Of a stretch of 36,791 bases of DNA, positions 19,548-36,477 are shown in pieces. The translations under genes and the position numbers were made by a program. This DNA is from an uncultured Clostridia bacterium. Lineage in GTDB: Bacteria > Bacillota > Clostridia > Christensenellales > UBA1242. Below the pieces are notes generated by a model. It searched no databases. It saw only the letters and a list, made by a program, of their open reading frames with translations, and was not told where the DNA came from. The stretch lies in the NCBI GenBank assembly GCA_944349805.1, contig CALVNP010000041.1, positions 1 to 36,791 on the forward strand, in the 5' to 3' direction. Positions within the stretch are counted from its first letter, which is position 1, and the number at the start of each line of letters is the position of its first letter.

Positions 19548-19553
19548 AGCATT

Positions 19554-19675: not shown

Positions 19676-19688
19676 GGAGCGTGATATA

Positions 19689-20138: not shown

Positions 20139-20147
20139 GAGGTATAT

Positions 20148-20372: not shown

Positions 20373-20750
20373 ATGCAAAAGCTTTTTGGGGAAGTATTTA
20401 AAGAATATTATCCTGGATATTTATTTAGTAATTTGGGTCGAGTTTATAGTTTAAAAAATAAAAAATTTTTAAAACCTTATCCAAATTCTCACGGATATAT
20501 GAGAGTTGGGATTTATATAAATGGTCGTAAAAAAGATGTATTTATTCATATTACGGTAGTTTATCTTTTTGGTGATTGTAACGGACATTTACCAGAGTCT
20601 AAAGAATTATCAAAACTTGGTCTTAGTATTGACCATCTAAACAGAAATAAATTTGATAATAGTGTTTCAAATTTAGAAATAGTACCAGTTCAAGAGAATT
20701 ACAGTCGATGGCCAAAAGTAGAAAAGGAAGAAGGTTGTCTTCCATATTAA
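20373..20750 (+). CDS. NUMOD4/HNH endonuclease
   Basis: This 125-aa protein has an N-terminal NUMOD4-like motif (YPGYLFSNLGRVYSLKNKKF) that contacts DNA. A HNH nuclease core follows (SIDHLNRNKFDNSVSNLE, about residues 87-104). Proteins of this layout are homing-type or phage nicking nucleases. It lies just before the hairpin chain at 20751-21041, so cleavage or nicking of that region is a reasonable guess. No intron is evident around it. Confidence 0.85.
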   Translation: MQKLFGEVFKEYYPGYLFSNLGRVYSLKNKKFLKPYPNSHGYMRVGIYINGRKKDVFIHITVVYLFGDCNGHLPESKELSKLGLSIDHLNRNKFDNSVSNLEIVPVQENYSRWPKVEKEEGCLPY

Positions 20751-20805
20751 CTCAGCAAAGGGCTTCTCCCTGAGGAAGTATTACAGTTCGATTCTGTATG
20801 CTGAG
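20751..20805 (+). ncRNA. tRNA-like structure 1
   Basis: A 7-bp acceptor-like stem, CTCAGCA (20751-20757) with TGCTGAG (20799-20805), directly abuts a T-arm-like hairpin TACAG-TTCGATT-CTGTA (20782-20798). Only 24 bases lie between, enough for one arm (GCTTC/GAAGT); the D-arm is missing. The 3' extension reads AACA, not ACCA. Confidence 0.5.
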
Positions 20806-20862
20806 AACATTATTCTCTTTTTATATTTCATTAAAGAAAAGGTCAGGGACTTTTCTTTCGGG

Positions 20863-20921
20863 CCTGTGATGTTCAAGTGTTTTTTAAGTCCTAACACTTA
20901 GTGGTTAGATTCCACAACAGG
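20863..20921 (+). ncRNA. tRNA-like structure 2 (degenerate)
   Basis: CCTGT (20863-20867) pairs with ACAGG (20917-20921). A 7-bp arm AAGTGTT/AACACTT (20875-20881, 20893-20899) has an 11-base loop, and GTGG-TTAGATT-CCAC (20901-20915) resembles a T-arm. No D-arm and no CCA. Confidence 0.4.
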
Positions 20922-20979
20922 TAATTGTTCTTTTTCATACAGAACACTCCTTAAAATAAAGAGCTTAAAAGCTCTTTAT

Positions 20980-21041
20980 GGTCAGAGCTTAGAGCACGGT
21001 TGCAGACTTCCGTTAAGGTTCAATTCCTTATCTGACCACCA
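20980..21041 (+). ncRNA. tRNA-like structure 3 with encoded CCA
   Basis: A perfect 7-bp acceptor stem GGTCAGA (20980-20986) with TCTGACC (21031-21037), followed by A and CCA, and a perfect T-arm TAAGG-TTCAATT-CCTTA (21014-21030). The 27 bases between hold a tiny GCT/AGC hairpin in place of the D-arm and an ACGG/CCGT arm with a 10-base loop. At 62 nt it is shorter than any normal bacterial tRNA, and no anticodon can be assigned safely. Confidence 0.6.
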
Positions 21042-21072
21042 ATTAATTGAATTTTTGAAAGGAGAAAATATA

Positions 21073-21279
21073 ATGACAAATTTTTTTAGTTGGATTGCTA
21101 AAGGATTAGAAATCGAGGGAATGACTGTACATAAGTTTTTTGCGTATATTGTTGCTATTTTGATTGTCGTTGCCATTTGTTATTCAATGGTGAAATTTAT
21201 AATTTGGATAATAAATAAAGTTAAGAAAAATGAACACTCAAATAATCATAACTATTACAACAAAAACAGAGGTCGTTAA
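21073..21279 (+). CDS. Small single-span membrane protein, candidate major coat protein
   Basis: This 68-aa protein starts at the ATG at 21073, with AAAGGAG at 21058-21064. Architecture: an amphipathic N-terminus (NFFSWIAKGLEIEGMTVHKF), one membrane helix (FAYIVAILIVVAICYSMVKFI) and a strongly basic, Asn-rich C-terminus that could bind DNA. That is the layout of filamentous-phage major coat proteins. No cleavable signal peptide is evident. It is the first gene of a tightly packed run ending with the Zot-like ATPase. The coat assignment is inference from shape and position. Confidence 0.65.
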   Translation: MTNFFSWIAKGLEIEGMTVHKFFAYIVAILIVVAICYSMVKFIIWIINKVKKNEHSNNHNYYNKNRGR

Positions 21280-21371
21280 TGGCGAAAATTATAAAATGGC
21301 TGATTATAGCTTTTGTGGTTGTTTGGTTAACAGTGGCTTTGGCAAACTGTCAAGTTCCAAAAATCTGGTGA
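21279..21371 (+). CDS. 30-aa single-span membrane protein, candidate minor coat protein
   Basis: A short frame starting on the last base of the upstream stop (TAATG) and ending 7 bp before the next gene. The product is one hydrophobic helix (KIIKWLIIAFVVVWLTVALA) with a short polar end (NCQVPKIW). The size matches the 32-33 aa minor coat proteins pVII and pIX of Ff phages, and it sits between the coat-type and pIII-like genes. No separate strong ribosome binding site is visible, so translational coupling is likely. Confidence 0.55.
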   Translation: MAKIIKWLIIAFVVVWLTVALANCQVPKIW

Positions 21372-21378
21372 GGTGTGA

Positions 21379-23274
21379 ATGAGAAGATTAATGTTTTTAA
21401 TTTTAGCAATTGCTTTGCTTTGTGGTGTTATTCCTACACACAGTGTTTGTGTTTATGCTGAAAATTCTACATCATATATAGAAGCTTATGAAAAAACTAA
21501 TGTTTTTGACGATTTGACATCAGCTGAAAATTTTAATGTAAACAACTATCCAGAAAATAAAAACGGACAGGTTTCCATAATAAATTTTGTAGAATTTGGT
21601 TATTCTTCCACAGGCTCGCAAGATAATTACGGGCTTTTTATCTATTTATACAATCCACAGAAACTTAACATAGATACAAGTTCAGTGCAAAATAAAATTC
21701 AAATGGCAATAGGATATAACAAAGATGGAGTCCCTAACAACTATTTTAAATTTCAATTACAGTTTTTAAATGCTTCTCAGGAAGAATATGAAAACTTATT
21801 TTTAAAATTTAAAGTTGTCGACATAGAAATCGAAGGTAAAACTTTTGTTGATAGAGTAGACAAAGAAGAAAGAAGATATGACATTTCAGGTATTGAAATT
21901 TTACAAAGTTCCCAAAATCTTCCAACAGAATATGGAATTGGTGGAACTTGGAAATTTACAGGATATTCAAATGGTTTTGGTGATGAAGAAGAATCAACTT
22001 TGCAGGCAACAGTAAACGAACTTGAAACAATAGAGTTGGAAGTAAATTCAACTTATTATAGGCCAGATGTGGTTTCAAGCTTAGGAATGTTTCATCAAAA
22101 TACTATAAATTCTGTATATTTTGCTGTTGATAATAGATTAATTGAAGAATACGGAAAATTACAAAAAATAAAAGCAGAATGGTACGAGTACAAAACTACA
22201 CCTATTGCAGTTGTAAAAGACAGTACAGTAAAAGAAGCTTTAACAGAATATTTAGGACAGACAATTGATAATGGTGGAAGATATGATGAAGATATTCCTT
22301 ATGGATTTTATGCAGGAAAAATCAACAATCTTCCTACTTATGATTATTCATACAATGCTTGGACTAGTTCTCTAGGATTAATTTCACCTCAACCTGCAAT
22401 AAATTATCTTGAAAAACTTAATTATATATTTAGTTCTAATAATGCTAGTTTAACAGATTTCGAGATTAAAGAACAGGACTTGCTTAATTACATATATAAT
22501 TACGATTTATCCTATGAAAGTGGTAAACTTCCAATTAATAATATAAGTGCAGATTTATTTCAAGACACTGTTGATGATGGAAGAATTAAAGGTTACAATT
22601 TAAAAGAGATAGATAGCGATGACAAGTTTGATATGCTTTCCTATGATAGTAATCACTCTTGGTGGGACAAACTTTTAAATTATGGGTTTTGGGCACCTGA
22701 AACAGATGGCGATTTAAAAAACATAAGTCCCATTCAAATGGTGAATGAACAAAACTTAGAGCAATCAGATGAAGTTATTTCAGATAGTTTATTGATAAAT
22801 TTAAGCGATGTTCCAGAATTTAAAACATATTTTTTTGAACAAAAATTACTAGGTAAAACAGTTTTTATATTTAGATTTGCTCAAACTGATTATTATTCAG
22901 CAAGTGGGGCTGTAATGTCTAATGGTTCAAAAATTCCAAATGGTGATATGTATTTGGCCATACAAACTGTATTTTTCAATTTTGACATAATACAACTAAC
23001 TTTTAACAGAGAAGGGAATTACACAGTGATACCTGTTGTGGCTGATCCTATAAATGTGATTCCAGACATTACACCACCATTAACAGCTAATTTTGATTGG
23101 CTTAGATTAATTTTAATAATTTTAATTGTTATAGTTTTGATTATAATCTTAGCTCCTTTACTTCCAACAATATTTAAAGGTTTGTGGGAAATAATTAAGC
23201 TATTATTTAAAATAATTTCACTTCCTTTTAAATGGATAGCAAGTTTGATTAACAAGGGAGGCAAGAACAAATGA
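21379..23274 (+). CDS. Secreted, C-terminally anchored 631-aa protein, candidate adsorption (pIII-like) protein
   Basis: The protein has a signal peptide (basic MRR start, hydrophobic core, cleavage near VYAEN at about residue 28), an extracellular region of about 540 residues rich in Asn, Tyr, Asp and Ser, and a membrane helix near 574-597 (IILIVIVLIIILAP). Basic amphipathic helices close the sequence. Signal peptide plus C-terminal anchor is the topology of filamentous-phage pIII, and the gene lies where gene III lies in Ff genomes, downstream of the coat genes. Motifs such as VEFGYSS, YGLFIYLYNP, RRYDISGIE and KAEWYEYKT suggest a conserved family, but I do not recognise a named domain. GAGGTG precedes the ATG; the stop overlaps the next gene (ATGA). 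Confidence 0.75.
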   Translation: MRRLMFLILAIALLCGVIPTHSVCVYAENSTSYIEAYEKTNVFDDLTSAENFNVNNYPENKNGQVSIINFVEFGYSSTGSQDNYGLFIYLYNPQKLNIDTSSVQNKIQMAIGYNKDGVPNNYFKFQLQFLNASQEEYENLFLKFKVVDIEIEGKTFVDRVDKEERRYDISGIEILQSSQNLPTEYGIGGTWKFTGYSNGFGDEEESTLQATVNELETIELEVNSTYYRPDVVSSLGMFHQNTINSVYFAVDNRLIEEYGKLQKIKAEWYEYKTTPIAVVKDSTVKEALTEYLGQTIDNGGRYDEDIPYGFYAGKINNLPTYDYSYNAWTSSLGLISPQPAINYLEKLNYIFSSNNASLTDFEIKEQDLLNYIYNYDLSYESGKLPINNISADLFQDTVDDGRIKGYNLKEIDSDDKFDMLSYDSNHSWWDKLLNYGFWAPETDGDLKNISPIQMVNEQNLEQSDEVISDSLLINLSDVPEFKTYFFEQKLLGKTVFIFRFAQTDYYSASGAVMSNGSKIPNGDMYLAIQTVFFNFDIIQLTFNREGNYTVIPVVADPINVIPDITPPLTANFDWLRLILIILIVIVLIIILAPLLPTIFKGLWEIIKLLFKIISLPFKWIASLINKGGKNK

Positions 23275-24638
23275 AGAAAGTAATAATTTACATTATAGTT
23301 TTAGCTCTTGCAGTAATTTTTTTAGGTGTGGCCATTAATTTTTCCAAACAAGAAGCAATAGAAGATCCAGTTATCACACCTACACAAGAGACTTGTGTAT
23401 TAAATTTAAGTGTTAACGATAGTACATTAGGGAAAATAAAGACTCCATCTGGAATTTATTTAAAAAATAGAGAAGTAGAATTACAAGCTTTTGCAATAAA
23501 CAACTCAACTTTTATGGGGTGGTACATTGATGATGAACTTATAAGCTCAGACATTGAATTTAAGTATATGTTAAAAGAAGATACATTAATAGTTGCGAAA
23601 TTCAAAGGACAAACGATGTATACAAAAGAATATTTAGAAGAACAAATAAAGATTATTGATTTAACTCAGACATTTAGAGATGTGAAATTAACATATGTAA
23701 GAGATTATGCAGAAATTAGATTAGTGATTTCTTTTGACAGAAGTTCAAGCCTATATCCAAATTTTGCAGACTATGTTCCAGAAAATTTAACTATTGGTTA
23801 TTACGATCAAATAGATATAATCTTTGATCTTAGTAGAAAATTTCAAAAAGCATTTTTAAACTGTTTTGATGAAGAATTTTTGTCAAGTCGAGTAGAAATT
23901 TCACAACAAGACTTAACAGATTTATTAAAGAAAATTACTTTTGATAAAGAATTATTTTCTAATTTTGTTTCTGTCTCAGGGAATCCAATAAATGATATTT
24001 TAAACATACTTGAAAACAACTACACACAAAATGGAGAAAAAACTATAAACATTTCATCTGTGTATTTTGTAGAGGTTGATAATTCTGTTCCTGTTTATGA
24101 TATGGAATCCCCCATACTTTTAAATGCTGGGCAGATAAATGTAATTGCAAGCTATGATATTGATGACACAATTCCAGAAGATCCCAACTTAGATGAAGAT
24201 GGTGACTATGTTATAGACGCAACAAGTTTATTTAATCTTAAAGGAATGTTTGAATATAACGAAGGTAATATTGCTTTAGAATATAGAATGCAGTTATATT
24301 TTGAAACTAATGAGCTAGATAATCCAGCATTGTGGCGTGAAAGAGCACAATATGATACTTACCCAGATTCAGATTTTGAAAGACTATATAAATTGTTTAT
24401 TGAAAAACTAGAAGATGTGAATTTTACAAGTGAATCAGCTGTTAAAAGAATAGAGTTGAAAAACAATCAAACAATCTCGTTAGACAATTTATATGATATT
24501 TACTATCGTCAAACTCCACAAATTGAAGGTATACATACCATAGATTTGGCTTCCTTGTTTAACTTTTATAACGAAGGAGGTGATTTGATAACAAACATAA
24601 AATTTAATGTTAAAGTCGAAATAAATTTTTATAATTAA
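23271..24638 (+). CDS. Membrane-anchored surface protein with one InlB-type repeat
   Basis: This 455-aa protein has an N-terminal membrane helix without a cleavage site (MKKVIIYIIVLALAVIFLG). One divergent InlB B-repeat follows (LGKIKTPSG ... FMGWYIDDELISSD ... IVAKFKGQ, about residues 48-112), then about 340 residues of an unrecognised extracellular domain rich in Asp, Asn and Tyr. The orientation should be inside-N, outside-C. It overlaps the pIII-like gene by 4 bp. Likely roles are virion-tip or host-surface adhesion, or a cofactor of the pIII-like protein. Confidence 0.7.
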   Translation: MKKVIIYIIVLALAVIFLGVAINFSKQEAIEDPVITPTQETCVLNLSVNDSTLGKIKTPSGIYLKNREVELQAFAINNSTFMGWYIDDELISSDIEFKYMLKEDTLIVAKFKGQTMYTKEYLEEQIKIIDLTQTFRDVKLTYVRDYAEIRLVISFDRSSSLYPNFADYVPENLTIGYYDQIDIIFDLSRKFQKAFLNCFDEEFLSSRVEISQQDLTDLLKKITFDKELFSNFVSVSGNPINDILNILENNYTQNGEKTINISSVYFVEVDNSVPVYDMESPILLNAGQINVIASYDIDDTIPEDPNLDEDGDYVIDATSLFNLKGMFEYNEGNIALEYRMQLYFETNELDNPALWRERAQYDTYPDSDFERLYKLFIEKLEDVNFTSESAVKRIELKNNQTISLDNLYDIYYRQTPQIEGIHTIDLASLFNFYNEGGDLITNIKFNVKVEINFYN

Positions 24639-24653
24639 AAAGGAGAAAAAAAT

Positions 24654-25271
24654 ATGTCAATAAAATCATTTAAAAATTTAATTTTATTTCTTGTTGCCAC
24701 AGCGATTGTCGTGACAATAGGATTTGGGATTTATCATCATATTAACGATATACAAGCTTTGATAAATCCTGAAAATTATACAACAGTAGAGGTTGAGACT
24801 GAAGAGGGAAAAGGTGCCATTGAAAAAATAGACAATCCAGTTAAGATTGGTGACACTGTTAAAATTACAGCTGTTGCAGAAGAGGGCTATAAATTTTGGG
24901 CATACTTTAATCAAGATGAAAAACTTCTAGCTGTTGAAAATCCATTCGAATACAAAGTAGTTGAAGGCGAAAAAGTTATAGCAAAATTCTATAATCCTGA
25001 AACAGAAGCAGTTGTAACAATACTAAAAGAAGTTGCAAACTTAGATACAGATAGTGTTGAGACAAGTTTAATTTCTAGTGAAAAGAAAGATATTAATTCG
25101 AGTGTTACAATTACAGCTGAAGCTGGTGAAAATGAAGTATTTGTAGGATTTTATAATGAAGCTGGTGAAGAAATAGAAACATTGAATAGTTATAATTTTA
25201 CAGCAAATAAAAATATAACAATTACAATGAAATTCACATACGAAGAACCTACACAAGAAGAGGTTGAATAA
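24654..25271 (+). CDS. Membrane-anchored protein with two InlB-type repeats
   Basis: This 205-aa protein has an N-terminal anchor (LILFLVATAIVVTIGFGIY, about residues 10-28), then two B-repeat-like units (VEVETEEGKGAIEKI ... GYKFWAYF ... VIAKFY, and VTITAEAGENEVFVGFYN ... ITMKF). It ends with an acidic tail. An AAAGGAG ribosome binding site precedes the ATG, and the end overlaps the next gene by one base. It is a short version of its two neighbours, so the three probably arose by duplication. Confidence 0.7.
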   Translation: MSIKSFKNLILFLVATAIVVTIGFGIYHHINDIQALINPENYTTVEVETEEGKGAIEKIDNPVKIGDTVKITAVAEEGYKFWAYFNQDEKLLAVENPFEYKVVEGEKVIAKFYNPETEAVVTILKEVANLDTDSVETSLISSEKKDINSSVTITAEAGENEVFVGFYNEAGEEIETLNSYNFTANKNITITMKFTYEEPTQEEVE

Positions 25272-26593
25272 TGAAGAAAGGAACGATAATTTTAATATCT
25301 TTTCTTTTAGGCTTAATATTGATTGGTGGCTATATATTAATAGATAGTCACCAACCAACACAGGCTGAAACTTATCATACTGTATTATTAAAAACAGAAG
25401 ACGACAAAGCTGGTTCAGTAAATAAGCTAAGCAAAACAGAATATAAGGCTGGAGAAAAGATAGTGTTAAAAGCTATACCAGAAGAAGAATATATTTTTGC
25501 TGGTTGGTATGTAGCAGATGAATTATTGTCTGCAAACAATCCTTATATTTATACAGTTAACGACAATGTTACAATAATAGCAAAATTTACATTAGAAGAA
25601 ATTGTAGAAACACCAAAAGTTTACACAGTAACTCTAACAGCAAGTGAAGGTGGTACTGTGATAGCTCTTGAACAAACAGAGTATGAAGAAAATTGTAAAA
25701 TAGTTTTAGAAGCAACAGCAAACGAAGGTTATAACTTTACGGGTTTTTATGACAGCACTGAGCTTATTTCAACAGAAAATCCTTATACATACACTGTAAC
25801 AAAAAATGTAAATATTGTAGCAAAGTTTGAAAATAATCAAACTGAGCTTGAAACAACATCTGCACAATATTTTACATTTAATGGAAATGCTTGTACAGGT
25901 TATATAGGAGATCAAACTGTACCTGAAATAATAATACCAAGAAGTTATAGTATAGATGATGATGGTAATTTTATTGATGGAAACGATTATGAAGTTACAA
26001 CGATTAGTTATCCTTCAACTTTACCTCCTCGAGACCCAAGTGGTTTTTCAAATTATCAAGGGAATATTATTTGTTTAGAAAATATTTCTGTTGTTACTTC
26101 AAGTGCTTTTTATTCTTGTAGATATGTAAAGAATATTATATTGTCAGAAAATACTAAACTTGATGGAAGTGCCATATTTTATACTTGTTTTCAAATTACA
26201 AAATTTGTTATTCCTAATGTTGAAATAATTCCTGCAGGTTTATTTTATAGTTGTACATCATTAAATGAGGTTGTAATACCAAATTCTGTTAAAGAAATAA
26301 GTTCAACAGCATTTCATAATTGTAGTTCATTAGAAGAAATTATTCTTCCTAATAGTATAGAATTTATTGGTAGTAATGCTTTTTATATGTGTAAAAATTT
26401 AACTTCTGTAACAATATTATCTGAAGTTCCACCTGTTTTAGTGTCTGTTAGTGCAATATCAACAGCAACTGAAACAATATACATACCATTTGGAACATTA
26501 ACTGCATATCAAACAGCTGATGTATGGTGTGATTTAAATGTAACATTTGAAGAACTTCCAGCTGATTATGTAGTGGAAGAATTAGTTGCTTAA
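25271..26593 (+). CDS. Membrane-anchored InlB-repeat / BspA-type leucine-rich-repeat protein
   Basis: This 440-aa protein has an N-terminal anchor (IILISFLLGLILIGGYILI), two divergent InlB B-repeats (residues about 35-115 and 118-190; FAGWYVADELLSA and FTGFYDSTELIST), then BspA-type LRR_5 repeats (about 270-410; FYSCTSLNEVVIPNSVKEIS, FHNCSSLEEIILPNS). BspA-like repeats mediate binding to host matrix or other bacteria in gut and oral species. In a phage context it may be a receptor-binding or lysogenic-conversion protein. The stop overlaps the Zot-like gene (TAATG). Confidence 0.8.
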   Translation: MKKGTIILISFLLGLILIGGYILIDSHQPTQAETYHTVLLKTEDDKAGSVNKLSKTEYKAGEKIVLKAIPEEEYIFAGWYVADELLSANNPYIYTVNDNVTIIAKFTLEEIVETPKVYTVTLTASEGGTVIALEQTEYEENCKIVLEATANEGYNFTGFYDSTELISTENPYTYTVTKNVNIVAKFENNQTELETTSAQYFTFNGNACTGYIGDQTVPEIIIPRSYSIDDDGNFIDGNDYEVTTISYPSTLPPRDPSGFSNYQGNIICLENISVVTSSAFYSCRYVKNIILSENTKLDGSAIFYTCFQITKFVIPNVEIIPAGLFYSCTSLNEVVIPNSVKEISSTAFHNCSSLEEIILPNSIEFIGSNAFYMCKNLTSVTILSEVPPVLVSVSAISTATETIYIPFGTLTAYQTADVWCDLNVTFEELPADYVVEELVA

Positions 26594-27822
26594 TGAAAAA
26601 ATTTGAAATAAATAAAAAATATTTAAAAAAATTTAATAATAACAAAAAAGATTATACAGGCTTAATAAAGTTTTTGGCTAGATATCATCAATGTATATTT
26701 GCTTTATTAAGTCTTGTGATAATCTTGCCAGTATTCTTTACTGTGTGGATAGATAAATCTTTACTTGTTATTCTTTTAACATATATTCCATTAGGTATAT
26801 ATGTATTGTATATTTGGATTCCATTCATAAGAGTATTTTGGTACATATCTCGTGTAAAATTACATAACAATTCAATTGAAACTTCAAAATATATGGTTAC
26901 AAGAAATGGTACACCAGGTGCAGGTAAAACAAGTTCACTTGTATATGACGCAGTTATACTTGCTAAAAAAATGTGGATTGAACTTAGGTTTCAATACTTT
27001 TTAGGTATAGGGAAAGAAGAAAAAATTTATTCTTCTGGCGATGATGAAAAAATATCAAGATGGGAAAAAGTAAAAGAGGCTTATGAATTTTATTCAGCTG
27101 GCGACTGTGTACCTTGCTTATGGTCTAATATACCAATGAAAGTTGGAAATCTTTATACTAATATTTGTACTCGTAGACATTTAGAACAAGCTGACAAAAT
27201 TGCAGAATATACAGTTTTAATTGTTGATGAAATAGGTTCAGTTGTTTCAATTGATGAAACGGGGAGAAAAGAAAGACCAATAGAGATAGGAGAACTTGCT
27301 CGTTGGTGTAGGCATTTTGGAGAATTTCATATTTATTGTACCGAACAAGATAAAAATAACGTTAATAAAGATATTCGTAGATGTGTTTGTGAAAACAAAT
27401 ATATGATTCAGCAAAAAGCAGTTTTAAAGCCACCAATTTTAAATTGGATATTTAAAAGATTAAAAGAATATTTTGTTAAAAAAATATCAAAAACAAAATC
27501 AAAAGTTTTTTCGTCTTTTATGAAAAATTATGAAAATTTTATTAAATTTTGTGGTTATCGTAAATATTATTATAAAGATTTTGCAGGAACAGAAGCTGGT
27601 TTTTCAAATATGATAGCTTATGGTGAAAAAAATATTGCTGATATGAAACAGTTAAAACGAGGTTCTCAAACATTTATTTTGCCAGCAGTTTTAAACGCTG
27701 TTTATGATGATCGTTGTTATAGGAATTTTTATAAAGCTAAAGATATGCCTTTGCAAAAGAATGTATGGAAAAGTTTAGTTATTTCTAGTAATCAAGAAGA
27801 TTTTTTTAGAAAGCAAGCGTAA
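26593..27822 (+). CDS. Zot-like (inovirus pI family) assembly ATPase
   Basis: This 409-aa protein has two membrane helices near residues 30-80 (IFALLSLVIILPVFFTVW and LLVILLTYIPLGIYVLYIW), then a P-loop ATPase. Walker A is GTPGAGKTS (G106 to T113) and Walker B is VLIVDEIG (D212, E213), followed by WCRHFGEFHIYCTEQDKNNV and DIRRCV, as in Zot/pI proteins. pI-family ATPases drive extrusion of filamentous phage through the membrane. In Ff pI the ATPase is N-terminal and the membrane span follows; here the order is reversed and no C-terminal span is visible. An FtsK/VirD4 coupling protein is less likely, given the short ATPase domain and the neighbours. Confidence 0.8.
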   Translation: MKKFEINKKYLKKFNNNKKDYTGLIKFLARYHQCIFALLSLVIILPVFFTVWIDKSLLVILLTYIPLGIYVLYIWIPFIRVFWYISRVKLHNNSIETSKYMVTRNGTPGAGKTSSLVYDAVILAKKMWIELRFQYFLGIGKEEKIYSSGDDEKISRWEKVKEAYEFYSAGDCVPCLWSNIPMKVGNLYTNICTRRHLEQADKIAEYTVLIVDEIGSVVSIDETGRKERPIEIGELARWCRHFGEFHIYCTEQDKNNVNKDIRRCVCENKYMIQQKAVLKPPILNWIFKRLKEYFVKKISKTKSKVFSSFMKNYENFIKFCGYRKYYYKDFAGTEAGFSNMIAYGEKNIADMKQLKRGSQTFILPAVLNAVYDDRCYRNFYKAKDMPLQKNVWKSLVISSNQEDFFRKQA

Positions 27823-28139
27823 AAAAATTTTTTTAGTTAAATTTTAACTGAGTGCATTTGCAAATTGCAAATGCCCTGCAAAATTTCTAAAAAAATTTTA
27901 GCTTGATTTATAAAAAATCTTTAAATCAGAAAAACAATCAAAATAATAATTATGCAAAGGCAAAAGTTTTTCAAATAAAATCATATTGAAAAATTTTTAA
28001 TCAGAAGTATATATAGAATGGCAAAATTAATATGTGTTTGAAATAATATTCAAATAAATATATAAATCCTATTAAACGCACGATAGTGCGTTAAAAAGTC
28101 ACCAAATAACCAAGTAATAGTATAAAAGGAGATGAGATA
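27823..28139. other. Hairpin-rich intergenic region, candidate replication origin
   Basis: There is no gene here. Inverted repeats in order: AGTTAAA/TTTAACT (27835-27849), GCATTTGC/GCAAATGC (27854-27874), CTAAAA/TTTTAG (27887-27901), TGATTTA/TAAATCA (27904-27928), TTTTTCAA/TTGAAAAA (27967-27993), TTTGAA/TTCAAA (28037-28054) and AACGCAC-GATA-GTGCGTT (28075-28092). The last is GC-rich for this genome and lies just before the HTH and replication genes. The first two could also act as a terminator for the upstream operon. Confidence 0.5.
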
Positions 28140-28391
28140 GTGAGAAAAAATGCAAATTTGTTAAGACAGTGGCGAAAATCTAACAATTGGACATTGCAGG
28201 ATGTTGCAGATGAACTTAACACAATGGGACTTAACGAAGGTACAATTTTAAAACAACATATATCGCGTTGGGAACTTGGAACACATATTCCAAACAATGA
28301 AGTTTTGCAAGGGTTGGCAGAACTGACAGAGATACCAGCGATTACGCTTTTAAACAATTTCAGGGCTACACAAAACAAAAAAGTTAGTTAA
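28140..28391 (+). CDS. XRE-type HTH regulator of the replication module
   Basis: This 83-aa protein has a GTG start behind AAAGGAGATGAG. The helix-turn-helix (WTLQDVADELNTMGLNEGTI, then ISRWELGTHIPNN) covers most of the protein. It lies between the hairpin-rich gap and the replication gene and may control copy number or bind the origin. Confidence 0.8.
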   Translation: MRKNANLLRQWRKSNNWTLQDVADELNTMGLNEGTILKQHISRWELGTHIPNNEVLQGLAELTEIPAITLLNNFRATQNKKVS

Positions 28392-28434
28392 TAAATAAAA
28401 TTTCATCACAGAAGTGGTGTACGGAGGTGTTTAA

Positions 28435-29337
28435 ATGGCTTCATATACAAAGCCGTTGTATCTTCGTAGAAATAGACTTTCAGAAACTGAGGGTACTCTA
28501 TATGGTAGGATTGGGGCAAAAGGAATGTTTGCATATTTTCTTTTGCTTGGAATAGTGAATGAAGGGTATTACTTAGAGATAAAAAAAGAGGGTTTTGAGG
28601 GGTTAGCATTTATGTGCCATACTAGTGCTTCAAAACTTTTGGAAATAATAAATCAGGCTGTATATCTTGGAATATTTAACAGAACAAAATATGACAAGTT
28701 TCAAATATTAACCAATGAAGAAATTCAACTAAATCATTTTAAAACAGTTGTTGGTAGAAAGTCTGAGAATATAGAAATTAGAATCCCATTTCTAATATCC
28801 TCTATCATACCTAAAATTATGAAATTTACCAAATATCAGTCTATTTTTACGGAAGTTTTAAAAAATATTAAGGCAAATTTTGAACAAGAAAAGCGAGAGT
28901 TAAAAGTTCAAAATAAAGACTTAGAGAGAGAATATATACTATTCGTTAATGAAGTTCGCTCTCTTCTTCAAAAACAACAAACACTAGTTAAAAAACGAGA
29001 AGATAACGAACAGCTTAAATCCAAATTCAAACAAGCTTTTCCTAATAAAATAGTGGAAGAAGATTTTATAATTCCAGATTATGTAGATATGGACAAACTA
29101 ATTGAAGGTATAAATAACAGTCCAGATTTTCTGCTAGGAGCAAAAAATTTTGGGTTAAAGCTATGCTGTAGAGTAGATATATACGAAAAAATAACAGCTG
29201 GCTATTATGACAAGATTGACCACTCCAGCACGAAAGTAAAAACGGACAAAAAAACAATTTCTCAATATAAAGGCAGAAACTATACCCAACTTGAATTAGA
29301 CGGTTTAATAGATGATATTGAAAATATAGATCTATAA
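28435..29337 (+). CDS. DnaD/DUF4373-like replication initiation protein
   Basis: This 300-aa protein begins with a winged-helix-type domain resembling DUF4373 (Lin1244/Lin1753) proteins: RIGAKGMFAYFLLLGIVNEG, YYLEIKKEGF, then HTSASKLLEIINQAVYLGIF and a short basic VVGRK end. A long charged coiled-coil follows (about 135-200), then an unrecognised C-terminal domain. Such proteins act as replisome organisers in phages and mobile elements of Bacillota. No HUH rolling-circle nickase motif is seen. GGAGGTGT precedes the ATG. Confidence 0.7.
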   Translation: MASYTKPLYLRRNRLSETEGTLYGRIGAKGMFAYFLLLGIVNEGYYLEIKKEGFEGLAFMCHTSASKLLEIINQAVYLGIFNRTKYDKFQILTNEEIQLNHFKTVVGRKSENIEIRIPFLISSIIPKIMKFTKYQSIFTEVLKNIKANFEQEKRELKVQNKDLEREYILFVNEVRSLLQKQQTLVKKREDNEQLKSKFKQAFPNKIVEEDFIIPDYVDMDKLIEGINNSPDFLLGAKNFGLKLCCRVDIYEKITAGYYDKIDHSSTKVKTDKKTISQYKGRNYTQLELDGLIDDIENIDL

Positions 29338-29346
29338 AGGAGAAAA

Positions 29347-29415
29347 ATGACAGCAATAAATGTTTATCAAATTATAAATAAAATAAAAGGGGAAATATGC
29401 AGAGAGAGGAATTAG
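29347..29415 (+). CDS. Possible 22-aa peptide
   Basis: An ATG at 29347 lies 4 bases after AAAGGAG and encodes MTAINVYQIINKIKGEICRE followed by RN. It overlaps the next gene's start in another frame. It may be a real leader or coupling peptide, or a decayed gene. Confidence 0.35.
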   Translation: MTAINVYQIINKIKGEICRERN

Positions 29416-29882
29416 AAAAAGCAATAGAGAACGACCAAAGTATTTGGTATATTTTTATGGATGAAATTTTTGAGATTGAAATTAAAAATCATACAAAACA
29501 ATTCATAAGTATTAATGGTGAATATTGTTATACTGATGAAAATAAAGTAAATAGAGCTTTTCTTTTAAATAAACTATACAAAACCGAAGCCGAAGCCGAA
29601 CACTACCTGCACCACGCAAATGTAACACGCACCATTACACTGCCGTTCTTGACTTGGGAAGAGTTTTTAAAAGAGCAAGAAATTAGGTTTGTTGATAATA
29701 TTGGTGAAGAGTGGCATTTATATTATAGTTACAGTGATGAATTTATATACATATATCTGCAATCTATGTTTGGTTATCACGGTGCAAAAACAAGAAATCC
29801 ACAAAATTTGGGTGAATTAACCGAAGCCAACTTTTACAAAGCCTATGACGAATGCGTGAGGCTGTTTAAGGAGAAAGAATGA
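29397..29882 (+). CDS. Hypothetical phage protein with a mosaic GC-rich patch
   Basis: This 161-aa acidic protein has AGGGGAAAT upstream. A middle segment (KTEAEAEHYLHHANVTRTIT and LPFLTWEEFLKEQ) is encoded by 29582-29645, where 35 of 64 bases are G or C, against about 30% around it. That suggests recombination with a more GC-rich phage. The C-terminus (NFYKAYDECVRLFKEKE) is helical. No function is recognised. Confidence 0.65.
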   Translation: MQREELEKAIENDQSIWYIFMDEIFEIEIKNHTKQFISINGEYCYTDENKVNRAFLLNKLYKTEAEAEHYLHHANVTRTITLPFLTWEEFLKEQEIRFVDNIGEEWHLYYSYSDEFIYIYLQSMFGYHGAKTRNPQNLGELTEANFYKAYDECVRLFKEKE

Positions 29883-30184
29883 AATTGAAGATTCCATATG
29901 AGGTTATTAAAAGTGCTATATACCAAATTGAATCTTACAATAAAAATGTTTATATAGATACTTTATCTTTATACAAAGGTATTGAAGGCTGTGAAATAAA
30001 TTATTTATATGACTTGTGTAATAATGAAAAAGTTTTAAGAGGTTATAAAGATGCTTACAGAGATGTAAAAACAACATTGGATGTTGTGAAGGCAGTATTG
30101 CACATAAAACTGGTGAATTATTGTAACGAGCATAAACTGTCAATCTGGTCGTTTCTTAATGAAATCAAAAACCTTAAAATTTAG
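29879..30184 (+). CDS. Hypothetical small phage protein
   Basis: This 101-aa protein overlaps the previous stop by 4 bp (ATGA), with AAGGAGAAAG upstream. It is mostly helical, rich in Tyr, Lys and Asn, with no membrane segment. It is part of the small-gene cassette at the right end of the element. No family is recognised. Confidence 0.65.
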   Translation: MKLKIPYEVIKSAIYQIESYNKNVYIDTLSLYKGIEGCEINYLYDLCNNEKVLRGYKDAYRDVKTTLDVVKAVLHIKLVNYCNEHKLSIWSFLNEIKNLKI

Positions 30185-30191
30185 GGGGAGT

Positions 30192-30413
30192 ATGAAAACA
30201 AAGAACTTAAATATTAAATACACTTGCGTTGGCGAAAATTTTAAAGAATGTGTAGATGTTGGTTATTGTGGAGATACAAAAACTCTCAAAGAATGGATAG
30301 ACGAATTTTACAACATGCAAAAGAGAGAAAAAATATATAACTGCTGTAATGATTACATAATTGAAATGATTTATTTTACATTTGGAAAAGTATTAAAAAA
30401 GGAGAAGTTATGA
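30192..30413 (+). CDS. Hypothetical small phage protein
   Basis: This 73-aa protein starts at the ATG at 30192, 2 bases after AGGGGGAG; an earlier in-frame ATG at 30159 lies inside the upstream gene and lacks such a site. It has five Cys (including NCC) and a helical C-terminus. It overlaps the next gene by 4 bp. Confidence 0.6.
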   Translation: MKTKNLNIKYTCVGENFKECVDVGYCGDTKTLKEWIDEFYNMQKREKIYNCCNDYIIEMIYFTFGKVLKKEKL

Positions 30414-30643
30414 AATTATACACACCGCTAGGCATAGCAGAACTGCCAGACAATTATGCAGACGAATATAGAGATAAAAGCGACATTGAACTGTTAGAAG
30501 AATTATTAAGGCAAGATAATACGGGAGATGGATTTTTAGACCCAATATTAGTTTCAATTTTGATTGATAAAAAGTTATTATTCAAAGGCGAAAGAGTAAA
30601 TGATATTCAAGCAAAAATTCAAAGATTAAAGGAGCAGTTATGA
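30410..30643 (+). CDS. Hypothetical small phage protein
   Basis: This 77-aa protein starts in an ATGA overlap with an AAAGGAGAAG site. It is acidic and helical, beginning MKLYTPLGIAELPDNYADEY and ending in a KIQRLKEQL helix. It overlaps the following gene by 4 bp. No function is recognised. Confidence 0.6.
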   Translation: MKLYTPLGIAELPDNYADEYRDKSDIELLEELLRQDNTGDGFLDPILVSILIDKKLLFKGERVNDIQAKIQRLKEQL

Positions 30644-30975
30644 AAATCTATGTAGAAAAGTTACCTAAAAGTTGTAAATATTGTCCTATGAATGCTTATG
30701 GAGTTGAAAAAAACTATTGCAGTTTATATTCAATAAATAATATTGGACAGTACATAGATTGCTGGAATAGTAAGCGGCATAAAAAATGCCCACTTGTCAA
30801 CATTAAAATCCATGACCGAGAACTTGTCAAGGAAGTGTTAAAGAAAGTTAAGAAAATTGCATTTAAGTCAAAAGTAATATGTGATAAGACGGGGTTACCT
30901 TGTTTTGGTGAGATGAGACAGATATACGGTATTTATGATTATGAGTTAGACCATATTCAAAAGGAGAAAGAATGA
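30640..30975 (+). CDS. Cys-rich small phage protein
   Basis: This 111-aa protein has an N-terminal Cys set (SCKYCPMNAYG, NYCSLYS, DCWNSKRHKKCPL) that looks like a zinc-binding module, then a basic helix and a second pair (VICDKTGLPCFGE). Small proteins with this pattern are common in gut phages. It has AAAGGAGCAG upstream and couples to the next short gene. No activity can be assigned. Confidence 0.65.
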   Translation: MKIYVEKLPKSCKYCPMNAYGVEKNYCSLYSINNIGQYIDCWNSKRHKKCPLVNIKIHDRELVKEVLKKVKKIAFKSKVICDKTGLPCFGEMRQIYGIYDYELDHIQKEKE

Positions 30976-31064
30976 AATCAAACAATACAAGCAAAACTCG
31001 AAACAATTCAAGACTTAATCTTGTTAAAGGTGCAGAGCTCGAAGGCAAATATGAATTTCTTTAA
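30972..31064 (+). CDS. Possible 30-aa terminal protein of the element
   Basis: An ATGA-overlapping frame with AAAGGAGAAAG upstream, encoding a basic peptide (MKSNNTSKTRNNSRLN at the start, GAELEGKYEFL at the end). It is followed directly by a terminator, so it is the last gene before attR. It may be a remnant of a longer gene. Confidence 0.45.
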   Translation: MKSNNTSKTRNNSRLNLVKGAELEGKYEFL

Positions 31065-31081
31065 AATTAACACAACACAAA

Positions 31082-31107
31082 AGAACTACAAACGCTAGTT
31101 CTTTTTA
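31082..31107 (+). terminator. Right-end terminator of the element
   Basis: AGAACTA (31082-31088), a 7-base loop and TAGTTCT (31096-31102), then a T run. It ends the rightward operon just inside attR. Confidence 0.85.
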
Positions 31108-31144
31108 CTTTTAATTTTTAATGTCGCGAATGTTATATGTGGCG

Positions 31145-31159
31145 TACCCCCGCAACCAG
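31145..31159 (+). repeat. attR core
   Basis: An exact 15-bp copy of the tRNA-fMet 3' end (TACCCCCGCAACCAG). The inner flank GTCGCGAATGTTA (31123-31135) matches the inverse of 16980-16992 in 12 of 13 positions. Joined, the two ends make a 50-bp attP-like site with dyad symmetry. Confidence 0.9.
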
Positions 31160-31161
31160 AA

Positions 31162-31295
31162 AAAATTATCACGCTTTTGGGCGTGATTTTTTTTAAAAAT
31201 CATCGCCTTTATGCGTGTAATTTTTTCCAGATACGCACCAAACGAAAACTCTAAGCATTTGCTTAGAGTTTTGTGCGTACTTCAATGAAAGCAAT
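31162..31295 (+). repeat. 134-bp structured repeat, copy 1, holding the displaced tRNA terminator
   Basis: This copy contains a terminator (ATCACGC 31168-31174, GCGTGAT 31181-31187, then T7), which would follow tRNA-fMet directly if the element were absent. A long hairpin follows: AAAACTCTAAGC with GCTTAGAGTTTT, extended by TACGCAC/GTGCGTA. Copy 2 differs at only two positions that I can see. Between the copies (31296-31367) I see no gene. Confidence 0.8.
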
Positions 31296-31367
31296 GCTAC
31301 GAAGGATTAAAAAATCTTTGGGTTAGCATAATAACCTCATTTGTGTTGGAGGTTTTAGTTTAGCATT

Positions 31368-31501
31368 AAAATTATCACGCTTTTGGGCGTGATTTTTTTT
31401 AAAAATCATCGCCTTTATGCGTGTAATTTTTTCTAGATACGCACCAAACGAAAACTCTAAGCATTTGCTTAGAGTTTTGTGCGTACTTTAATGAAAGCAA
31501 T
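31368..31501 (+). repeat. 134-bp structured repeat, copy 2
   Basis: A direct copy of 31162-31295 with the same terminator and 12-bp hairpin; the differences are C to T in the CCAGAT segment and in ACTTCAATG. The following 31502-31616 is AT-rich without a visible gene. Confidence 0.8.
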
Positions 31502-31616
31502 TTAACTAAGAAATAAAAAGTTTTGGGTGTTTTTATGTTTATTATAATTTTTTTTCTTTTTTAATTAGACATTTAAAAGTTAAATATTTAATTAAAAAAT
31601 GTTTTGTTATTTTGTT

Positions 31617-32225
31617 TTATTTTTTACTTTTAATATTTTTAGAATATAATTTTGACCAAAGAAATACAACCACCTGTCCAGGAATGCCCAAAAAATATAA
31701 TGGATATAAATCATACTGTAAAAATTGCAAATAAAAAGCTGTTATAAAGGTCCAAATAAAAATTGAAATTAATATGTAAGTATACAACGGTTTTCCCCAA
31801 ATACAATTAAAAACAAGAAGTACGATGGCAGATGCTGGAATACTCCATATGAAAATTTGCCAAAAATTAACATTTAAAAACATTTGGAGATAAACATAAC
31901 AAAAAGTTGAAATTCCCCAAATAACTGAAACTCCTAAAAGAGCAATAATGAGTTTGTTTATTCTTTTGCTTTTATTTGTTTCTATAACATCTTCAATTTT
32001 TGCTTCTGGTGAAATTAAATCATTAATTGTAACATTAAAAAAATTTGCAATTTGGATTAATGTTTCAATGTTAGGGGTTGCTTCACCATTTTCCCATTTA
32101 CTAACGGCCTTATCTGAATAATTCAACAAATTGGCAAATTCCATTTGTGTTAATTTTTTCGACTTTCTAAGTTTTGATATGTTGTTTCCTATAATCTTGC
32201 TTAACTCTATATTAACTTTATCCAT
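31617..32225 (-). CDS. XRE regulator fused to a four-helix membrane domain
   Basis: This 202-aa protein from the ATG at 32225 has an N-terminal XRE helix-turn-helix (LTQMEFANLLNYSDKAVSKWENG), the typical NVTINDLIS linker, then a membrane domain of about four helices. A longer in-frame start at 32348 would add 41 residues with no homology and would include the promoter, so it is rejected. The ATG lies 6 bases from a perfect -10 box with no ribosome binding site. Membrane-bound XRE regulators of this kind often sense envelope stress; the ligand is unknown. Confidence 0.85.
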   Translation of the reverse strand: MDKVNIELSKIIGNNISKLRKSKKLTQMEFANLLNYSDKAVSKWENGEATPNIETLIQIANFFNVTINDLISPEAKIEDVIETNKSKRINKLIIALLGVSVIWGISTFCYVYLQMFLNVNFWQIFIWSIPASAIVLLVFNCIWGKPLYTYILISIFIWTFITAFYLQFLQYDLYPLYFLGIPGQVVVFLWSKLYSKNIKSKK

Positions 32226-32231
32226 ATAGGA

Positions 32232-32260
32232 ATTATAATTAAAAAAAATTGATATGTCAA
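32232..32260 (-). promoter_or_regulatory. Perfect consensus promoter giving a leaderless mRNA
   Basis: On the minus strand TTGACA (32255-32260), a 17-bp spacer and TATAAT (32232-32237), then TCCTAT and the ATG. The predicted start of transcription falls on the start codon. Confidence 0.8.
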
Positions 32261-32402
32261 ACCGATTATATACAATTCTCTTTCTGGTAGAGAGATATTT
32301 TTTTTGTATAATTAAAAGAATTTTAAGTGTAGAAAACAATTTTGTCAATTCTCTTTAATAGTTGAGCATATTTTGTTATTGTGATATTGCAAAGGGGGAG
32401 AT

Positions 32403-33587
32403 ATGAAAAAAGTTTCAATAATAATTCCTTGTTATAATTGTGAAAAAACATTAAAAAGATGTTTAAACAGTGTATTTTCACAGACATATAAAAACATTGA
32501 AGTGATTGCTGTTAATGATGGGTCGAAGGACAACAGTCTTGCATTATTAAAAGCATTTCAGTTAAAGCATAAAAACTTGTATATATTTGATAAACTAAAC
32601 GAAGGTGTTTCTGCAACTAGAAATTTCGGATTATCAAAAGCAACAGGAGATTATATTCAGTTTATGGACAGCGATGATAATTTTACAAAAAAAACAGTGA
32701 TATCAACATTGTGTAATATTATGGACAAAAACAAAGTTGATGTTGTCATTTTTAATTTTAAACATAAATGTTTTGAGACTTATTTGAATTCAGGCATTTA
32801 TAATTTGCAATGTGAAGAAGATTTTTTTAAAGTGTATTGTGATTTTTTTGTTTGTTCTATGCCTTGGAATAAAATGTTTAAAAGAGAAGTCATTAAAACA
32901 AAATTTGATATAACAATGAATTTTGCAGAAGATGAAATTTTCTGTTTAGCAAATTTAAAAAATGCAAAGCGCATTTATTACACTAGTAAGGTTTTTTACA
33001 ATTACTATTGTGCGCCTACTTCAAAAAAAGGGAATGCATCACTTATTAATAAATTATACGAAGACAAAAATTTTTCAAATAACGAGAAAACAATATGGTA
33101 TGGTTCAATAAAAAATATGTCTAAGCGATATGAGATCTTCAATAAAGAATATTCTGAAATAAAATCGAAAATGGAATTTATAAGATTGTTTGATTTCTAT
33201 TTTTTTGATTTTGCATTTATGAACAATTTGAATGTTTCTCGAGAAAATCAAAAACATCACTTAGAAAATATGTTAAACAATAAAATGTTTTGGGTTATGT
33301 TAAAGTTCTTTGAAAAATATGGACTAAAAATGAAGAAAGACAAAAATTACAAGGATTTGGTTGAAAGTTTTGTAGATTTAGGAGCTAAAGCATATTCGGA
33401 TATAAAACATATAAAGAAGCTAAAATTGTACAAGGTGTTGTTTACGCTTTTTGGTGTGTTATTTTTTGATAAAGAAGAAAAATCTAAAACCTACAACATT
33501 TTGGTTGAATGTTTAGATGAATATGATAGACAACTTACAAGTGAAGCAATTTTTTGTAAGGACTTAATACTTTCACAAGGAGTGTAA
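32403..33587 (+). CDS. Family 2 glycosyltransferase
   Basis: This 394-aa protein has the GT-A fold signatures VSIIIPCYNCEKTLKRCLNS, NDGSKDNS, a GVSATRNFGL motif and the metal-binding D89-S-D91-D92 (FMDSDD). It should transfer a sugar from a nucleotide donor to a lipid or polysaccharide acceptor at the membrane. The C-terminal third is helical and unrecognised. An AAAGGGGGAG ribosome binding site precedes it. It is followed after one base by an acyltransferase, so the acceptor is probably a glycolipid or an acylated sugar. Confidence 0.9.
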   Translation: MKKVSIIIPCYNCEKTLKRCLNSVFSQTYKNIEVIAVNDGSKDNSLALLKAFQLKHKNLYIFDKLNEGVSATRNFGLSKATGDYIQFMDSDDNFTKKTVISTLCNIMDKNKVDVVIFNFKHKCFETYLNSGIYNLQCEEDFFKVYCDFFVCSMPWNKMFKREVIKTKFDITMNFAEDEIFCLANLKNAKRIYYTSKVFYNYYCAPTSKKGNASLINKLYEDKNFSNNEKTIWYGSIKNMSKRYEIFNKEYSEIKSKMEFIRLFDFYFFDFAFMNNLNVSRENQKHHLENMLNNKMFWVMLKFFEKYGLKMKKDKNYKDLVESFVDLGAKAYSDIKHIKKLKLYKVLFTLFGVLFFDKEEKSKTYNILVECLDEYDRQLTSEAIFCKDLILSQGV

Positions 33588-35588: not shown

Positions 35589-35663
35589 TGGTGATCCCGA
35601 GGGGAATCGAACCCCTGATACCGCCGTGAAAGGGCGATGTCTTAACCGCTTGACCACGGGACC
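35589..35663 (-). tRNA. tRNA-Glu (TTC)
   Basis: A 75-nt cloverleaf on the minus strand, acceptor GGTCCCG/CGGGATC, anticodon loop CTTTCAC-type with TTC, T-arm GGGTTCGAATCCC and encoded CCA (35589-35591). It is the last tRNA of the operon. Confidence 0.95.
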
Positions 35664-35670
35664 ATAAAAA

Positions 35671-36130
35671 TTTGTTGGCCTTTTGGGCTCGTTTTGCCCT
35701 TCGGTCAAAATCTTCGCTTATCGGCCACAAATTTTTATTCAACGGCCAGACGCAAACTCCATTTCATTGGGAGTTTGGCCGTTACTCTCGTGCGAAGAAT
35801 GTTCTGCGAAGAGTAACTGATTTTTATTTGTTGGCCTTTGGGCTCGTTTTGCCCTTCGGTCAAAATCTTCGCTTATCGGCCACAAATTTTTATTTAACGG
35901 CCAGACGCAAACTCCATTTCATTGGGAGTTTGGCCGTTACTCTCGTGCGAAGAATGTTCTACGAAGAGTAACTGATGTTTTTTTATTTGTTGGCCTTTTG
36001 GGCTCGTTTTGCCTTTCGGTCAAAATCTTCGCTTGTCGGCCACAAATTTTTATTTAACGGCCAGACGCAAACTCCATTTATTTAAAAGTCTGCTATTACC
36101 TTTGAGCGAAGAAATTTCAAAAGTAACTAC
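35671..36130 (-). repeat. Three tandem copies of a structured repeat of about 157 bp
   Basis: Copies start at TTTGTTGGCC at 35671, 35827 and 35986 (periods 156 and 159). Each holds AACGGCC / GGCCGTT enclosing AAACTCC / GGAGTTT, a TTTTGnnCnCTTCGGnCAAAA-type hairpin and, in copies 1 and 2, TTACTCT / AGAGTAA. Copy 3 diverges after the first 100 bases. The G+C is far above the rest of the window. Open frames on the plus strand here are by-products of the repeat. The array lies between tRNA-Gln and tRNA-Glu and should be part of their transcript. 36131-36186 shows nothing else. Confidence 0.85.
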
Positions 36131-36186
36131 CCTACTTCTTTTTATCGCTATATGGCTTCAAATCTTACCGATTTTTGCTATAAAGC

Positions 36187-36261
36187 TGGCTGGGGTGGCA
36201 GGATTTGAACCTACGCGTGCGAGAGTCAAAGTCTCGTGCCTTACCACTTGGCGACACCCCA
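36187..36261 (-). tRNA. tRNA-Gln (TTG)
   Basis: A 75-nt cloverleaf on the minus strand, acceptor TGGGGTG/CACCCCA, anticodon loop CTTTGAC with TTG, T-arm GGTTCAAATCC and encoded CCA (36187-36189). Confidence 0.95.
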
Positions 36262-36319
36262 TTGTTTGGGGAGGGTGATTTTAAGCATTTGTAAACTTCA
36301 TTGAAATTCACAAATGCAT

Positions 36320-36396
36320 TGGTGGACCTTCTAGGACTCGAACCTAGGACCGACCGGTTATGAGCCGGTTGCTCTAACCAACTGAGCTAAAGGTCC
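36320..36396 (-). tRNA. tRNA with CAT anticodon (elongator Met, or Ile2)
   Basis: A 77-nt cloverleaf on the minus strand, acceptor GGACCTT/AAGGTCC, anticodon stem CCGG with loop CTCATAA, encoded CCA. It has none of the initiator features seen at 16902. The body resembles tRNAs annotated both as elongator Met and as lysidine-modified Ile2, so the charging identity is uncertain. A hairpin (CATTTGT with ACAAATG, about 36293-36316) separates it from tRNA-Gln. Confidence 0.9.
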
Positions 36397-36401
36397 ACAA
36401 C

Positions 36402-36477
36402 TGGTCGGGGTGAAGAGACTCGAACTCCCGGCCCCATGGTCCCAAACCACGTGCGCTACCAACTGCGCTACACCCCG
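36402..36477 (-). tRNA. tRNA-Pro (TGG)
   Basis: A 76-nt cloverleaf on the minus strand, acceptor CGGGGTG/CACCCCG, anticodon loop TTTGGGA with TGG, T-arm GAGTTCGAGTCTC and encoded CCA. It is the first tRNA of the operon, about 6 bp after the predicted transcription start. Confidence 0.95.

Follow-up and report, generated by a model that had tools for sequence, protein, structure and literature searches.

A predicted membrane-anchored XRE regulator with a very likely leaderless transcript and a putative operator of its own in an uncultured Clostridia bacterium

Leaderless XRE-type autoregulators are already known from phages and from restriction-modification systems. PaaR2, a cI-like protein of an E. 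coli O157:H7 prophage, was characterised by 5ʹ RACE and N-terminal sequencing, in a paper that also calls cI leaderless (PMC8630535), and the restriction-modification protein C.Csp231I is described with a C-box of two palindromes and a leaderless transcript (PMC4824078). Transmembrane transcription regulators (TTRs) join a DNA-binding domain and predicted membrane helices in one component, and the words XRE and HTH_3 are absent from the main text of the TTR paper (PMC10269533). Among Firmicutes, leaderless genes preceded by a TATAAT-type signal were found in 56 of 209 genomes, at a mean of 4.2% of genes, and concentrate in Lactobacillales and Mycoplasma, according to that survey (PMC3160421). 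Transcription start site mapping in three solventogenic clostridia gave about 2–3% leaderless transcripts (PMC9045289), and a comparative study of genes without a Shine-Dalgarno (SD) sequence names leaderless mRNA as one route (PMC5397173).

The window studied here is a stretch of 36,791 nucleotides from the 0.93 Mb genome (30% G+C) of an uncultured Clostridia bacterium. Its minus strand carries a gene (31617–32225) for an XRE regulator of 202 aa, in which an HTH_3 domain (residues 16–70; PF01381, 54.8 bits against a cut-off of 23) is followed by four predicted helices. In the AlphaFold2 model (mean pLDDT 91.9) these helices span residues 77–117, 123–143, 146–167, and 174–201. On the Kyte-Doolittle scale, three 19-residue segments of the tail scored 2.05–2.24 and the fourth 1.25, so three helices are clearly hydrophobic and the fourth weakly so; as modelled, this tail of about four helices should anchor the regulator in the membrane. 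All 24 aligned family members matched HTH_3 at E ≤ 0.01. The Pfam matches of the regulator covered the HTH region only, with no S24-type C-terminal domain, and the Foldseek and VIA-align matches likewise covered the HTH (residues ~3–76) and essentially not the membrane part; C.BclI, C.AhdI, and C.Esp1396I were among these structural matches, and matches in Streptococcus were confined to the HTH. In NCBIfam no specific name was found for the window protein, all models listed being below their cut-offs. The ten longest-matching named relatives (L039–L048) come from metagenome-assembled genomes (MAGs) or from genomes of uncultured bacteria, and their labels are Clostridiales, Clostridia, Bacilli, Firmicutes, or Eubacteriales. 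No paper on this regulator family or its operator was recognised in the literature searched, which covered few subscription journals.

The locus shares with lambda cI, expressed from PRM, and with PaaR2 a phage-type HTH, an mRNA that begins without a leader at AUG (here predicted), and operators (here putative) in a divergent intergenic region. Those proteins, however, belong to a phage and a prophage, whereas the family of the window regulator occurs across its order beside lipid and envelope genes, and where cI has its C-terminal domain the window regulator has a hydrophobic tail. The C proteins of restriction-modification systems are also small autoregulators with leaderless transcripts, autoregulation being predicted from sequence in the present case, but the window regulator differs from them in its predicted membrane tail and its putative operator and targets; no restriction-modification family was found among the 7 window proteins and 20 homologue neighbours scanned with Pfam. 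Like the TTRs, the regulator would be a one-component protein with a DNA-binding domain and predicted membrane helices, and it fits the broad notion of such regulators, although the family has a putative operator of its own and is mostly restricted to the order. By analogy, the regulator may work like lambda cI, PaaR2, and the C proteins but, on the domains and neighbours scanned, is a member of neither group.

Directly upstream of the gene lies a sigma-A-type promoter, P1 (32232–32260, minus strand), with the −35 element TTGACA at 32260–32255, a spacer of 17 nt, and the −10 element TATAAT at 32237–32232, a 12/12 match to the consensus. Read on the minus strand, the order is TTGACA-17-TATAAT-TCCTAT-ATG, leaving 6 nt between the −10 element and the start codon (32223–32225), whose A at 32225, 7 nt past the −10 element, is the predicted +1. 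No SD of at least 4 nt was found ahead of this ATG in the window sequence. The first-pass annotation had reported such a promoter 6 bases from an ATG without a ribosome binding site, and both statements proved correct; its remark that the neighbouring genes have strong ribosome binding sites holds for the glycosyltransferase gene starting at 32403 and the acyltransferase gene starting at 33589 but, by the SD criterion applied here, fails for five other window ORFs. Perfect TTGACA/TATAAT pairs with a spacer of 15–19 nt occur three times in the window, compared to 0.21 expected by shuffling, and TTGACA-16 to 18-TATAAT-3 to 9-ATG occurs three times genome-wide, compared to once for the reversed control. 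We rejected the perfect consensus promoter as the surprise in itself, since the genome holds others; the telling feature is the exact distance of 6 nt between the −10 element and the ATG, not the perfection of the promoter.

To follow this layout through the family, a profile built from 24 homologues was applied at a threshold of E ≤ 1e-25. Of the 396 genomes sampled from the order, 135 gave a match; among 398 drawn from the phylum there were two, the genome that holds the window and another from its class; within the sampled relatives of the own genus (G001–G006), one close homologue was present, in G003. The upstream regions of 146 loci, reduced to 136 distinct homologues after the removal of repeats and of the partial L045, were then compared, with start codons picked by rule; in a small number of cases (e.g., L040, L151, L191, and L192) this rule clearly chose the wrong codon, and these were kept in the counts as not leaderless, and the homologues are related, so these counts are not independent. 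A −10 box stood 5–8 nt before the ATG in 83 of the 136 homologues, at a distance of 6 nt in 63, 7 nt in 13, 8 nt in 5, and 5 nt in 2, and was missing there in 53, while an SD was present in 23 of the 136. Of the 83, which we call leaderless, 71 have their best −35 element at a distance of 17 nt, 47 have an extended TG, and 67 have an A at +1, 7 nt after the −10 box. The family consensus reads TTGnnn-17-TGnTATAAT-6-ATG, of which the window copy lacks the TG. Transcription starts favour a pyrimidine followed by a purine, and, as this preference predicts, 97% of the 63 homologues with exactly 6 nt have a T or a C just ahead of the ATG. The start proposed in the first reading, at the A of the ATG, is strongly supported by the −10/ATG spacing across the family, the absence of an SD, and this pyrimidine. 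The first two of these traits are shared by many members of the family, which makes leaderless expression of the regulator very likely.

The distribution of the layout was mapped for 127 of the 136 members (labels copied by hand; nine from named contigs were not mapped). Of the 22 families and 68 genera covered, 11 and 36, respectively, included leaderless members, with 21/22 in f15, 10/11 in f20, 20/32 in the own family f1, and 0/6 in f4, and the remaining 11 of the 22 families had no leaderless member among those mapped. As a comparison set we used 87 DegV genes, taken from the same loci and from loci around operator copies and treated with the same start-picking rule. A close −10 box preceded 90 of 146 regulator genes and none of the 87 DegV genes (Fisher P ~9e-26), and an SD preceded 25 of 146 regulator genes and 80 of 87 DegV genes (P ~3e-31), both P values ignoring relatedness. 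Some homologues with an SD (e.g., L122 and L187) show, by eye, promoter-like sequence further up and then a leader, which suggests that the leader has been gained or lost within the family.

On one side, the regulator gene adjoins a stretch (16902–31530) that looks like a prophage-like element of inovirus type. A separate cluster of four tRNA genes (Glu, Gln, Met, and Pro) occupies 35589–36477 on the minus strand of the window. The prophage-like element lies beside a tRNA-Met gene and encodes a large serine integrase (phrog_95), a LexA/CI-like repressor (phrog_4), a replication initiation protein (phrog_2562), a weak match to a Zot-like ATPase (phrog_197, E 4.6e-5), and secreted- or membrane-looking ORFs. 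At the end of the element is a direct repeat of 160 nt (31162–31321 and 31368–31527; 93% identity, spacing 206), each copy with a terminator-like hairpin, thereby duplicated, and a 13-nt inverted repeat. The gene of the LexA/CI-like repressor (18951–19547, minus strand) also lacks an SD and has a TATAAA ending 6 nt before its ATG, and is thus a second leaderless-looking HTH repressor in the window, as with lambda cI. That the XRE regulator itself is part of this element was considered and rejected, because the divergent pair of XRE and glycosyltransferase genes recurs in L007, L009, and L105, where the divergent neighbour clusters with the window glycosyltransferase, and the family is widely spread in the order.

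Upstream of P1 lies an operator-like dyad, CTCTACCAGAAAGAGAA, at 32276–32292 (minus strand), with its centre (32284) at −59 relative to +1. It matches YTCTACN5GTAGAR at 10 of 12 positions, and CTCTACTCACAGTAGAA is the form of the site in a relative. As a sequence feature, such a site of the cI/C-protein type beside the −35 element of the own leaderless promoter recurs at 10/12 or better in 57 of the 83 leaderless homologues, compared to 1.2 in shuffles, and an inverted repeat of at least 7/8 was present in 52 of the 83, compared to 11.2 in shuffles. Sixteen of 151 genomes of the order contain the perfect form CTCTACTNNNAGTAGAR, with 18 different sites in all (reversed control, two matches), and 13 of the 18 sites lie directly upstream of a regulator gene. 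In the own genome, a search with the pattern of the window dyad, allowing one mismatch, found this site and no other copy, whereas the reversed control gave four matches, so the pattern is not beyond chance on its own; conservation and position are what support the dyad as the putative operator of the regulator itself. In one further case, L251 (G043:C1), a perfect operator faces a protein of 386 aa without a Pfam family, behind an extended TGGTATAAT promoter.

The operators of the 57 homologues are not placed at random distances. Their centres relative to +1 lie at −47/−48 (10 cases), −53 (1), −55 to −60 (19), −67 to −71 (18), −77 to −84 (5), and −91 to −96 (4), in classes about 11 bp apart with gaps between them; the homologues behind these classes are not independent. 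Steps of ~11 bp keep a site on the same face of the helix, which we read as contact with RNA polymerase, although common descent or cooperative repression could account for the phasing as well.

The genes around the regulator point to lipid and envelope functions, with exceptions. In the window, it is divergent from a gene for a family 2 glycosyltransferase (GT2; 32403–33587, plus strand) with a strong SD, followed on the same strand by genes that Pfam assigns to a PlsC-type acyltransferase (PF01553; 33589–34401) and a CrtO-type acyltransferase (PF18927; 34373–34963). The upstream neighbour is divergent in 93 of the 136 loci. By cluster, and with one representative of each cluster scanned with Pfam in 20 of 30 clusters, these neighbours were DegV (32), GDSL lipase (11), GT8 (8), GT2 (4 and 4), acyltransferase (5), and CrtO (2), and then rarer or single types, among them a condensation-domain protein, a YpsA-like protein, a GT4-type glycosyltransferase, and a mechanosensitive channel, with some familyless; the classes vary and include non-lipid genes. 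One DegV neighbour, L137, resembles the FakB1/FakB2 chains, subunits of fatty-acid kinase, and we class the DegV proteins as the fatty-acid-binding type.

Copies of the operator also occur away from the regulator. With a relaxed form of the family operator, 96 of 396 genomes of the order matched, compared to 55 of 396 for the reversed control, so many single relaxed sites are noise and the claim of a regulon is weakened to that extent. The stretches examined around operator copies comprised 39 away from a regulator and one at the regulator of G043, among the matches listed. Likewise among the matches listed, 86 distinct relaxed sites were classed by the genes facing them within 400 nt: 14 face a regulator and a DegV gene, 9 a regulator alone, 28 a DegV gene alone, and 35 neither, giving 42 sites with DegV, compared to a background of 2 DegV genes in 516 ORFs. 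In 3 of the 28 (L254, L258, and L259), a regulator is present elsewhere in the locus. Twenty further facing proteins were scanned, among them five HlyIII, four GT8, one BioY (opposite a DegV gene), and one thioesterase with an alpha/beta hydrolase opposite; the rest include three HTH proteins, a sporulation protein, a pyridoxamine-oxidase-like protein, an acetyltransferase, AbiH, and one familyless protein. Separately, genome G265 (L276 and L318–L322) has 26 strand matches to the relaxed operator (19 forward and 7 reverse), far above other genomes, which suggests a spread of the motif in this genome, possibly in the form of a repeat.

The promoters of 61 DegV genes carry more than a palindrome. 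Half-sites cluster near +24, +45, and +66 relative to the palindrome centre, in steps of ~21 bp, and the predicted transcription start lies ~106 nt (22 genes), 116 nt (5), or 126 nt (9) from the palindrome, three phased classes that take in 36 of the 61 genes, with the other 25 outside them; the tally was made by eye on the best-scoring promoter of each gene. A similar array in the GT2 promoter of the window was sought by eye, and none is claimed.

Our preferred reading, to which we give a probability of about 0.62, is that the gene encodes an autoregulated membrane XRE regulator of lipid and envelope genes that is expressed leaderless and acts mainly as an activator. It would be a one-component regulator, with a DNA-binding domain of the XRE/Cro-cI type and a hydrophobic tail that anchors it in the membrane. 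Its near-ideal sigma-A promoter, with the predicted +1 on the A of its own ATG, would produce a leaderless mRNA, a step well supported by the sequence comparisons. The protein would bind, as a dimer or an array, the putative operator related to CTCTAC-N5-GTAGAG just upstream of the −35 element, and so control both its own promoter and the divergent lipid or envelope gene, as the operator positions suggest. This target would be the GT2-acyltransferase-CrtO genes in the window and, most often, DegV in relatives, and further copies of the operator would act in trans at DegV, HlyIII, and GT8 genes. Operator distances in steps of ~11 bp and DegV half-sites every ~21 bp up to the −35 element suggest a protein that works chiefly by activation, from a single face of the helix: a membrane-anchored dimer would nucleate on the palindrome and activate its own promoter and the target through the phased array. 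Judging from its location and the target genes, the membrane domain would most likely report the lipid or fatty-acid state of the membrane.

The main rival keeps the leaderless transcript and reverses the sign of control. The regulator would then be an autorepressor: bound to the dyad, it would keep its own promoter and the divergent gene shut down until released by a signal. The dyad does sit between two divergent genes, and XRE regulators with divergent operators are often repressors. However, most sites are centred upstream of the −35 element (−47 to −84), in classes ~11 bp apart, and not over the promoter, and at the DegV promoters the palindrome is remote while the half-sites extend as far as the −35 element, which speaks against repression, and we consider autorepression possible but rather unlikely. 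A bolder extension of the activator reading, which we offer tentatively and hold to be doubtful as a whole, makes the regulator a chromosomal, membrane-embedded counterpart of lambda cI/PRM: an XRE protein sensing lipids or fatty acids that, by assembling on half-sites arrayed in helical phase, would switch on both its leaderless promoter and a small regulon of lipid and envelope genes. The absence of a leader would keep the sensor translated when ordinary initiation fails; in the first-pass annotation, such translation was conjectured to make the regulator insensitive to the controls on normal initiation. If true, that regulon would comprise DegV/FakB-like proteins, HlyIII/PAQR proteins, GT8 glycosyltransferases, and acyltransferases.

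A different objection concerns the leaderless layout itself, which might be a general habit of the lineage and nothing special to the regulator. In a sample of 292,977 bases of the own genome, made up of the window and 20 further stretches (L072–L091) with 206 usable ORFs, 16 ORFs had a −10-like hexamer ending exactly 6 nt ahead of their first ATG, whereas 1 ORF had it at 5 nt and 4 had it at 7 nt, and internal ATGs gave about 2.2 (Poisson P ~2.5e-7 for the 6-nt peak against the mean of the other distances from 0 to 12). Fifteen of these 16 are among the 109 ORFs without an SD and one among the 97 with an SD. Because the peak falls at exactly 6 nt and nearly all of it in ORFs without an SD, leaderless genes appear to be a general class in this genome, in which the regulator is not alone; the class includes ORFs that we take, from their N-termini, to be UvrB-, HflX-, and SpoIIGA-like. 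G026, of the same family, had the hexamer at 6 nt in 6 of 59 ORFs, and the remaining eight sampled genomes had it in 0–1 ORF each. These figures for the own genome and G026 favour a lineage habit, whereas one sampled genome each of f15, f20, and f32 had 0–1 such genes per 42–55 ORFs although 42 of 51 regulator homologues in these three families are leaderless, and the DegV genes of the system are not. A habit of the lineage is a doubtful account of the layout at the regulator.

The main transcript might alternatively start further up, at a second promoter-like site (TTGACA-17-TAAAAT, 11/12; 32320–32348, minus strand) ~90 nt upstream of the ATG, which would give an mRNA with a leader but without an SD and leave the promoter next to the ATG a minor one. 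A start well upstream was what the first-pass annotation had named as evidence against its proposal, and the 11/12 site makes such a start conceivable. The region is indeed duplicated: the promoter/operator stretch 32234–32283 has a diverged second copy at 32307–32356 (minus strand; 70% identical, repeat family D2) with the same AAAGAGAATTG element. In the family, however, second upstream promoters are not enriched, being present in 3 of the 83 leaderless homologues compared to 3.0 in shuffles, while the promoter next to the ATG is conserved, and this account is improbable. The weakest alternative, a chance arrangement in AT-rich DNA or a miscalled start codon with translation from another start, can appeal to the low G+C content of the genome (30% in the sample, too) and to the reading frame, which stays open for 43 codons upstream of the ATG, but is scarcely credible, since the homologues begin at about the matching residue, in many of them an in-frame stop stands only a few codons ahead of the start, the pattern recurs in f15, f20, and f32, whose sampled genomes have ~50% G+C, and a close −10 box precedes none of the 87 DegV genes from loci of the regulator system.

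For annotation, the layout means that gene finders and promoter annotators that depend on an SD could misplace the start of the regulator. The leaderless start is kept in about half of the sampled families while the DegV genes of the same system use an SD, which suggests that it has been selected for in the regulator. The putative operator, in turn, defines a candidate regulon of fatty-acid and envelope genes that is open to testing, in a group represented here by genomes and MAGs.
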